Shown here one piece after another: positions 9,948-12,477 of a DNA stretch of 64,000 nucleotides. The DNA comes from Bdellovibrio sp. GT3 (GTDB lineage Bacteria; Bdellovibrionota; Bdellovibrionia; Bdellovibrionales; Bdellovibrionaceae), in contig NZ_JBBNAD010000005.1 in NCBI RefSeq assembly GCF_037996765.1, positions 1,210,001-1,274,000 on the forward strand. The letters run 5' to 3'. Both the position numbers and the translations under genes were made by a program. Position 1 is the stretch's first letter. Every line of letters starts with the position of its first letter. A model generated the notes under the pieces. It was not told the DNA's origin and made no database searches. It worked only from the letters and a program-made list of their open reading frames with translations.

Positions 9948-10465
9948 TGTTTGATTTGTGGAAGCGCCTGATTGCGCTGTTGAACACATACAAGGCTTAC
10001 GATCCCGCGGCAAAGTCCCGTTGGGAGATCGCCTTGTTGTATCCGGGCCCAAAAGCCTTGATCATGCACCGCCTGGCTCATCTGCTTTATAAAGCTGAAT
10101 TGTTTTTCGTGGCGCGCTTGGTGGCGGAGATTTCCCGTTGGTTGACGGGGATCGAAGTTCACCCGGGGGCAAATCTGGGGCGTCGTCTGGTTATTGATCA
10201 TGGCTTCGGCGTGGTGATCGGAGAGACGGCCGTCGTTGGCGATGATTGCATTATTTTTCATGGAGTGACATTGGGGGGGATTAAATTCGACCCGGTGAAA
10301 CGACATCCAACAGTGGGTAACAAAGTCATGATCGGTGCCGGAGCCAAAGTTCTGGGGCCAATCACCATCGGTGACGGTGCCATGATCGGAGCCAACGCTG
10401 TGGTCGTGAAAGATGTGCCAGCAGGCGCAACTGTGGTCGGTCCCGTTGGTCAGGTTAAAGCATGA
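9947..10465 (+). CDS. cysE: Serine O-acetyltransferase
   Basis: This 172-residue enzyme likely transfers acetyl from acetyl-CoA to serine, the first step of cysteine synthesis. It is a left-handed beta-helix hexapeptide-repeat protein with the characteristic CysE block: [32 protein letters not shown], and the HGVTLGG active-site loop (His and downstream residues). It is the short form that lacks the extended helical N-terminus of E. coli CysE (273 residues), as in many bacteria. The ATG 9947 overlaps the previous stop (ATGA). No cysK is adjacent. Confidence 0.88.
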
Positions 10466-10893
10466 CCCTGCAGGAGTGGTTCGCTGAATACGGCGAAAGT
10501 CATCAAAACTCCAAAAACAAAATCATCCATAAAATTTGCGTGCCGTTGATTTTCTTTTCGGTCGTGGGCCTGCTTTTGCAAATTCCAGTTCAAATGGGCC
10601 CGATCAAATTAGGAGAGATCTTTATCGCCATTGCTCTGGGTTGGTATTCCACCTTGGGAATGAAGCCGGTGATGGTGATGCTGGGGCAATTGGTTTTGTG
10701 TTACATCCTTCTCTATTTATTGGGTATGGTGATCCAGCCGCTATGGGCGGCCCTCGTGATCGTTTTCGTTCTTGCTTGGATTGGTCAGTTCTATGGCCAT
10801 AAGATTGAAGGCAAAAAGCCCTCTTTCCTGAAAGATCTGCAGTTTCTGCTGATCGGACCCCTTTGGGTCGTTAAGGACCTGTTTTTTAAGTAA
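10462..10893 (+). CDS. Mpo1-like (DUF962) membrane protein
   Basis: This 143-residue inner-membrane protein has the DUF962/Mpo1 signature: an N-terminal [23 protein letters not shown] segment whose His residues (about 15 and 23) match the family's metal-binding histidines, then three to four transmembrane helices, and a C-terminal [13 protein letters not shown] with another conserved His. Yeast Mpo1 is an iron-dependent dioxygenase of 2-hydroxy fatty acids; whether this protein has that activity is unknown. It is the last gene of the coupled string, overlapping cysE by four bases. Confidence 0.82.
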
Positions 10894-11039
10894 ATATACC
10901 CACAGATCGCAGCGCACAGCATCACAAAGTTAGCATGGGCTCACATCCATTTGCATTACGGTTTCATGATCAAAAACTAATACTAAATCTGTCGCTTGAC
11001 GCCCCGTGGCTCTGAGAGAATGGGGGAGTACCTAAACCA

Positions 11040-11069
11040 CATCGGCCAATCTGGTTGGTGTGATTGAAA
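11040..11069 (+). promoter_or_regulatory. Possible stem-loop in leader of the 37-residue ORF
   Basis: The segment CACATCGGCCAATCTGG followed by TTGGTGTG can fold as CACA/TGTG plus CCAA/TTGG with a four-base bulge and a five-base loop. It lies about 20 bases upstream of the ribosome site of the small ORF. The fold is read by eye; it might be a 5' UTR control element or chance. Confidence 0.3.
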
Positions 11070-11091
11070 CTAGCACGAAAGGAGTTCGGCT

Positions 11092-11205
11092 ATGAAACAG
11101 GTAGAACTAGAAACGGCTCCTACGACGACCACTCAACTTGAAAGTACAAGTATTGCTACTCCGGTCCGTAAGAAAAACCGTCGCCGCCGCCTTGCCGCTT
11201 GGTAA
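11092..11205 (+). CDS. Small basic 37-residue ORF
   Basis: This short ORF starts at ATG 11092 and ends at TAA 11205. It has an excellent ribosome site, AAAGGAG at 11078-11084, seven bases from the ATG. The peptide starts with an acidic/Thr-rich half (MKQVELETAPTTTT) and ends with a very basic tail (RKKNRRRRLAAW). It lies alone in a gap between two gene blocks, follows a potential stem-loop leader and is followed within 15 bases by a strong hairpin, so it looks like its own transcription unit. I do not recognise it. A nucleic-acid-binding peptide is a guess from charge alone; it may also be a leader peptide or part of a small RNA. Confidence 0.5.
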   Translation: MKQVELETAPTTTTQLESTSIATPVRKKNRRRRLAAW

Positions 11206-11218
11206 GTAGGCACTCGGG

Positions 11219-11238
11219 GCCCTCCCAGCGTGGAGGGC
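11219..11238 (+). terminator. Hairpin after the 37-residue ORF
   Basis: GCCCTCC (11219-11225) pairs perfectly with GGAGGGC (11232-11238) around a six-base loop. It sits 13 bases after the small ORF stop and just before the convergent 3' end of the next gene. The following bases (TTCCATT) are only weakly T-rich, so it may be a weak terminator or an RNA-stabilising hairpin. Confidence 0.5.
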
Positions 11239-11248
11239 TTCCATTAAG

Positions 11249-11605
11249 TTACTTCATACAAGTAGCTTCGTTGAAAACCCGGTAGTCGCCCTTATTTTGG
11301 GCCACCGTCCACTTTCCTTCTTTTCGTAGTAAAATTCTGGAAGTCCCATCTCGAGGGGACATAGGGATCCATCCCTCATTCAAGTCTGTTTCCAGGGCAT
11401 AAAGCTCTTTGGTGCTGCCATCATTGTGGGTTTCGATCAGTTCCAGGAGGCCCGGTTGGCCAATACTGGGGTTTTCCTGGATGGTGATGCTTTTAAGATC
11501 GGGCTGAGCAATGTCCTTACAGAACAACACTGTCTTGGTCGTGGCCTGCGTTACCGCAGAAACCCCTAGGATCGAGATGAAGGTAAGTTTTGTAAGTCGC
11601 TTCAT
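11249..11605 (-). CDS. Small exported protein of unknown function
   Basis: This protein has about 118 residues when started at ATG 11605, which gives a clean signal peptide (MKRLTKLTFISILGVSAVTQA, with cleavage after the Ala-rich end). An in-frame extension upstream to 11797 is open but reads as non-coding. The mature protein has about 95 residues, two Cys (FCKD near the start and ATCMK at the end) that could form a disulfide, and beta-type content. No family is recognised. It is transcribed divergently from rpsD. Confidence 0.65.
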   Translation of the reverse strand: MKRLTKLTFISILGVSAVTQATTKTVLFCKDIAQPDLKSITIQENPSIGQPGLLELIETHNDGSTKELYALETDLNEGWIPMSPRDGTSRILLRKEGKWTVAQNKGDYRVFNEATCMK

Positions 11606-11850: not shown

Positions 11851-12477
11851 ATGAAAAGAAAAGGCAAATCTGCTCGCTTTAAACTACAAAGACGTCTTAT
11901 GACTGAGCTTCCAGGCTTGGGCAAAGCTGGTGCTTTGGAAAGAAGACCATATCCTCCAGGTCAACACGGTCAACGCCGTCGTAAATACTCTGAGTTCGGT
12001 CTTCAACTTGAAGAAAAACAAAAAGTTCGTATCCACTACGGACTACGTGAAGAACAATTCCGCCGTATCATCGGTAAGGCTCAAAAATCTTCTAACTCTA
12101 ACTGGGTTGAGTCTTTGGTGAACTTGTTGGAAAAACGTTTGGATAACGTTGTATTCCGTCTTGGTTTCGCACCTTCTATCGCTGCAGCAAAACAAATGGT
12201 TTCTCACGGTAAAGTTTTGTTGAACGGTAAAAAAGTAAACATCTCTTCTCAAATCATCAAAGTAGGCGATATCGTTTCTTTGAAAGCTGATGCTTACCAA
12301 AACCAAGTTTACATGTCTGCGAAACAAGCTCCACGTCTTCCACTTCCTTCTTTCATGACTAAAGAAGAAAAAGGTGGCATCGAGACTGGTCGTTTGATCG
12401 ACGAACCGAACATGGAAGCAGTTCCATTCTCTTTCGATCCAGGTCTAGTGATCTCTTACTACTCTCTTCGTGGGTAG
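11851..12477 (+). CDS. rpsD: 30S ribosomal protein S4
   Basis: S4 nucleates assembly of the 30S subunit by binding 16S rRNA and takes part in decoding fidelity. At 208 residues the length is standard. The N-terminal S4 domain includes RRPYPPGQHGQRRRKYSEFG and the S4 RNA-binding domain includes RLDNVVFRLGFAPSIAAAKQMVSHGKVLLNGKKVNI. The zinc-binding cysteines of some S4 proteins are absent, so this is a Cys-free form. Codon choice (GTA, GGT, CGT, AAA) is more biased than in neighbours, as expected for high expression. It stands alone, outside a ribosomal operon, with its own terminator; another S4 copy could exist elsewhere. Confidence 0.96.
   Translation: MKRKGKSARFKLQRRLMTELPGLGKAGALERRPYPPGQHGQRRRKYSEFGLQLEEKQKVRIHYGLREEQFRRIIGKAQKSSNSNWVESLVNLLEKRLDNVVFRLGFAPSIAAAKQMVSHGKVLLNGKKVNISSQIIKVGDIVSLKADAYQNQVYMSAKQAPRLPLPSFMTKEEKGGIETGRLIDEPNMEAVPFSFDPGLVISYYSLRG

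Follow-up and report, generated by a model that had tools for sequence, protein, structure and literature searches.

The window analysed here is a stretch of 64,000 nucleotides from Bdellovibrio sp. GT3, in which a small gene occupies a gap of 355 bases (10894-11248). The gene rpsD lies at 11851, about 0.65 kb downstream of the small gene and, in the window, in the same orientation. The order HD gene, cysE, Mpo1-like gene, small gene and rpsD is widely retained across the genus. The features of the locus are as follows.

10462-10893: Mpo1-like gene, flanking the small gene upstream
10950-11022, plus strand: conserved promoter region, from column conservation in a 24-row alignment of upstream regions
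11016-11021, plus strand: -10-like GAGAAT within the conserved promoter region
11038-11062, plus strand: leader stem-loop of 10 pairs with the loop AATCT, inserted into the predicted 5' UTR of one clade
11071-11092, plus strand: start-site hairpin of the MFE fold, stem TAGC-(A)-CGAA / TTCG-GCTA, a candidate site of the CsrA type
11080-11084, plus strand: Shine-Dalgarno AGGAG, in the 5-nt loop of the start-site hairpin (predicted fold)
11092-11205, plus strand: small gene of 37 codons with an ATG start, MKQVELETAPTTTTQLESTSIATPVRKKNRRRRLAAW; profile matches in 24/24 genus genomes, indel lengths divisible by three, pN/pS 0.34
11161-11202, plus strand: C-terminal motif PVRKKNRRRRLxxW directly before the stop, with invariant residues and a pN/pS of 0.22
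11216-11241, plus strand: terminal hairpin with the core GCCCTCC-CAGCGT-GGAGGGC (perfect 7 pairs, 11219-11238), extended by G-U/G-C pairs
11249-11605, minus strand: convergent gene of no known family, flanking the small gene downstream

The original prediction of an ORF with an optimal ribosome site in this gap was confirmed, with 37 codons and an AAAGGAG ahead of the ATG. An ORF of 37 or more codons led by AGGAG arose in 25 of 3000 dinucleotide shuffles of the gap. This value is modest for one gap chosen after reading of the whole window, and it is the comparative evidence that is decisive. A profile of the small gene matched all 24 Bdellovibrio genomes with E ≤ 2.4e-4, including the genome that carries the HD100 coordinates. 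In the weakest of these matches (G004, 2.4e-4) the tail alone was aligned and the N-terminus is unrelated. The other 23 genus sequences encode 37-41 residues and differ in length by threes. Across 36 codons, 25, 20 and 33 columns are variable at codon positions 1, 2 and 3, respectively. For 18 representatives, pN/pS was 0.34 over the whole gene, higher in the N-terminal part (0.43) and lower in the tail (0.22), and two pairs of loci differ by synonymous changes alone (L034/L035, 7 synonymous and 0 nonsynonymous; L023/L024, 5 and 0). A comparison of synonymous and nonsynonymous changes had been proposed as a check, and its outcome (7/0, 5/0, pN/pS 0.34) favours a protein; the predicted reading frame is thus kept in relatives, with changes biased towards synonymous ones. 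Judged by these substitution patterns, the small gene is protein-coding and under purifying selection that acts on the protein.

The protein has a pI of 11.5 and a charge of about +4.5. Its Arg/Lys-rich C-terminus, which had been pointed out from the window alone, proved to be conserved as the motif R-R-x-L-x-x-W-stop in the slowly changing tail. R31, R32, L34 and W37 are invariant in a 15-row alignment that includes other genera, where members keep the tail and differ in their neighbours and N-terminus. Among the 368 genomes of the phylum that were searched, 27 matched at E ≤ 0.001, namely 24 from the genus, two from g5 and one from g13. All 27 belong to one family, and the three from outside the genus are credible members. 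G004, G063, G027 and G035 were part of the profile used in the phylum search, so that their matches there are not independent; with the genus-only profile A1, the E-values were 2.4e-4 for G004, 0.021 for G063 and 0.041 for G027. A strict DNA pattern for R-R-R-R-L-x-[GA]-W-stop, run on 140 genomes of the order, matched in 25 and found G035 and G063. Both g5 genes adjoin an RNase Y-like gene and a gene resembling phosphate-binding proteins, and these common neighbours support their descent from one gene. Weak profile matches in G032, G052, G067, G088 and others were not counted, as many contain stops or have no terminal motif. Two matches to the strict tail pattern were also dropped: in G121 the open frame that ends there has no Met, and in G096 no frame was recovered.

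Relatives of the small protein were found neither among viral contigs nor among plasmids. Pfam gave 0 matches for the window protein, and none of 14 family members matched NCBIfam or PHROGs. The PDB yielded no credible relative, the single match being to the low-complexity N-terminus with an E-value of 0.089. The AlphaFold model of the small protein reaches a pTM of 0.12 and has no secondary structure, and is therefore silent on binding. The small protein has no match to any family in these libraries and is encoded in every genome examined of Bdellovibrio, a predatory and well-studied genus. The genus-wide presence, the lack of a family match and the exceptional constraint at the start site described below make it a good candidate for a Bdellovibrio core gene that has been overlooked.

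Several observations argue for a unit of its own. The conserved promoter region holds an A+T-rich upstream element, TTTCATGA..AACTAATA.TAAA, followed by a TCGCTTG block. A scan with the sigma-70 consensus did not recognise the region 10950-11022; its identity as a promoter is inferred from column conservation, and the position of the transcript start is likewise inferred. The perfect seven-pair hairpin that had been noted after the stop was found again at 11219-11238. Our fold script placed a hairpin 3' of the stop in 24/24 sequences, a count that takes the best local fold of each and has no shuffled control. In the window the hairpin is not followed by a T-run, and a terminator pattern scan found none there, while several relatives carry hairpins and then T-runs at the equivalent position. 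The terminal hairpin is probably a transcription terminator that lacks its T-run in this species. In G021, the block equivalent to 10947-11240 (294 bp, 88% identity) has been turned around in place, while its flanks keep their orientation. The inverted block (L038, about 1463-1756) reaches from the promoter region through the terminal hairpin, which indicates that the unit is independent of how its neighbours are oriented, and the inverted copy faces away from rpsD. Comparison thus shows a gene that has a start site, a conserved promoter region and a terminal hairpin to itself, independent of its neighbours; we read it as an autonomous, monocistronic unit. The earlier suggestion of a small basic protein from a dedicated small unit is supported by these data, since conservation covers the frame and the C-terminus as well as the promoter region and the start site, and one species has the entire unit inverted intact.

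The motif CTCANNNNGTTTTCA, tried as a marker of co-regulated genes in two genomes, was hardly commoner than its reversed control (12 matches vs 8). A longer promoter pattern matched at the small-gene locus only, in 4/5 genomes. On these results the idea of a motif common to the small gene and rpsD was dropped.

The leader that had been described as foldable holds a real stem-loop at 11038-11062, but one limited to the window's own clade, as it is present in 4/24 sequences (the window, L036, L037 and L038). In these four, three of the ten pairs are changed on both sides and 90% of the cells are paired. Sliding the register destroys the pairing, but with these four sequences 47 of 500 shuffles scored as high, so that the covariation behind this stem-loop is no more than suggestive.

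The most informative part of the locus is the translation start site, which had been described merely as an optimal ribosome site. Of the 16 bases that precede the ATG, 14 are invariant across 23 genus sequences, and the mean identity is 0.99. The start of rpsD, located by tblastn in 22/24 genus loci, served as the control and has 0/16 invariant bases and a mean identity of 0.52; its starts come from tblastn coordinates, and the Mpo1-like gene (5 starts) and cysE (1 start) were left out as controls. The predicted start-site fold of the window has -6.9 kcal/mol. Of 18 distinct genus leaders, 15 are predicted to fold with AGGAG (in L044, ATGGAG) in a hairpin loop; the other three (L026, L031 and L042) have a paired Shine-Dalgarno in their best fold. 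Outside the genus, the loop hairpin was the best fold in 0/3 leaders. For comparison, GGA lies in a small loop at 3 of the 41 window genes that have a GGA-bearing ribosome site. A single GGA-loop hairpin was seen when leaders of 40 bases were folded. The sequence at the start site hardly varies, which places the hairpin beyond proof by covariation. Because this site is so tightly conserved, the small gene is probably under dedicated translational control. The start-site pattern CGAAAGGAGTTCGNNNATG was also sought elsewhere in three genomes; it was exact at the small gene only, and near matches stayed at about the level of the control.

In bacteria, CsrA binds GGA within hairpin loops that lie over ribosome sites. 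Its targets often carry two or more such sites, and paired hairpins with AAGGA loops are a layout typical for them. We found CsrA encoded in 65/66 genomes of the family, including the window genome (G000). In each of the four Bdellovibrio genomes that were read, one flagellin gene has a leader with two AAGGA-loop hairpins.

L128, L129, L130 and L131, start at 1489 in each: two-hairpin flagellin leaders of G005, G007, G000 and G006

These leaders have a strong hairpin of the type CTGAGTTTC-AAGGATC-GAAACTCAG and a second one with AAGGAG at the Shine-Dalgarno, and in layout they resemble CsrA leaders with two sites. The encoded CsrA, the GGA-loop start site and the two-hairpin flagellin leader are the grounds on which we propose CsrA control of the small gene; such control would be the simplest explanation of the start site. 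Together, the small-gene start site and the flagellin leader point to CsrA control in Bdellovibrio. None of the papers listed by a literature search that paired CsrA with Bdellovibrio has either word in its title or abstract. Another flagellin group (L125, L126, L127 and L133) has a conserved leader hairpin with an GCCTAAGTAGGTATAAGGC core just 5' of the ribosome site.

The known-RNA search that had been suggested for this region gave no support to an RNA family. Rfam returned 0 matches in the window at the gathering score and only chance-level matches at a relaxed threshold, and a tRNA search found nothing relevant. In G006, the small gene lies at 3,020,079-3,020,192 on the minus strand. The c-di-GMP-I riboswitch of G006 (1,073,868-1,073,951, minus) falls within the merRNA interval given in the available part of PMC3627812, which identifies the G006 coordinates as those of HD100. 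None of the eight attack-phase sRNAs of HD100 in Table 2 of PMC3627812 covers the small-gene locus. As far as described in that part, the table is confined to intergenic RNAs enriched in the attack phase and ORFs with homologues were removed, and absence from it therefore says little. In the proteome paper of 2025, small proteins are described as under-represented in the part consulted (PMC12546842). The consulted parts of both papers do not mention the locus, and our literature searches found no paper on it. Two of the sRNAs in that table (PMC3627812), APsRNA3 (561,854-561,981) and APsRNA4 (562,984-563,081), flank the N-terminal match of a flagellin gene that we located at 562,142-562,552, so that APsRNA3 might belong to a flagellin leader.

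Overall, we propose, with a probability of roughly 0.45, that the locus is an autonomous gene for a lineage-specific small peptide that would bind nucleic acid or the ribosome and whose translation would be controlled at the start site, most simply by CsrA. The N-terminus is rich in Thr, Ser and Pro and is probably disordered, and the C-terminus, rich in Arg and closed by Leu-x-x-Trp, would be the working part. Composition predicts that this tail makes the protein a nucleic-acid- or ribosome-binding peptide, and such binding is our best guess; DNA or RNA binding, judged from the Arg-rich tail, is plausible. The AGGAG would be displayed in the hairpin loop, and CsrA bound to this loop would block ribosomes, as at flagellin mRNAs. 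It is also conceivable, but improbable, that CsrA switches translation of the small protein while the mRNA titrates CsrA, a feedback that would couple the peptide to the flagellin programme of the predator.

The strong coding evidence without any family match would also suit a real small protein whose tail serves membrane or partner binding, secretion or an action on prey, and whose start site reflects very high translation with no regulator. A cationic tail that ends in Trp and an optimal Shine-Dalgarno fit this reading; however, high translation alone should not require 14/16 invariant bases, when rpsD, a part of the translation machinery, has 0/16, and we consider it rather unlikely. The nucleotide constraint at the start site exceeds the need of the protein, and with the GGA-loop hairpin and the compactness of the unit this could speak for a dual-function RNA, a short transcript that, besides encoding the peptide, has a role in trans, such as titration of CsrA by that hairpin. 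Such a role seems distinctly unlikely, as there is a single clear hairpin of the CsrA type and the available attack-phase sRNA table does not list the locus (PMC3627812).

That the frame is a leader peptide or attenuator for a downstream gene such as rpsD was suggested by the position of rpsD, about 0.65 kb away in the same orientation in the window and with its start found at 22/24 genus loci. In the window the gene directly downstream is convergent and sits between the two instead of being co-transcribed, the unit ends in a hairpin, the G004 region examined showed no rpsD next to the unit, and the inversion in G021 contradicts such a coupling, which makes this reading very improbable. The original prediction had also allowed that the unit is a regulatory RNA with a leader peptide; a role of this kind towards another gene is not supported, in view of the convergent neighbour, the G004 region examined, the G021 inversion, the lack of an Rfam match and the selection on the protein. 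A non-coding RNA with a chance ORF would account for the conserved leader bases, but is scarcely credible in view of the codon pattern: substitutions are biased towards synonymous ones, indels stay in frame and the C-terminal motif is common to several genera.

The proposed gene can be compared with three known systems. It combines small size, an Arg-rich tail and a dedicated small transcript, as do tiny accessory ribosomal proteins and other small basic proteins associated with the ribosome or nucleoid. It differs from them in lacking any match in Pfam, NCBIfam and PHROGs or a credible one in the PDB, in its conserved terminal L-x-x-W and in being found, among the phylum genomes searched, in a single bacterial family. 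With leaders repressed by CsrA/RsmA, for example those of flagellin, it shares a GGA Shine-Dalgarno in a short loop beside the start codon, in a genome that encodes CsrA. Unlike these leaders, it has, in the 40-base leaders folded, one clear candidate site instead of at least two, a site that resembles the binding consensus only partially, and its mRNA encodes an orphan peptide. The attack-phase sRNAs of HD100, as presented in Table 2 of PMC3627812, come from the same genus and are short and intergenic, a description that would also fit the predicted transcript of the small gene, whereas the small-gene unit, in contrast to them, encodes a protein.
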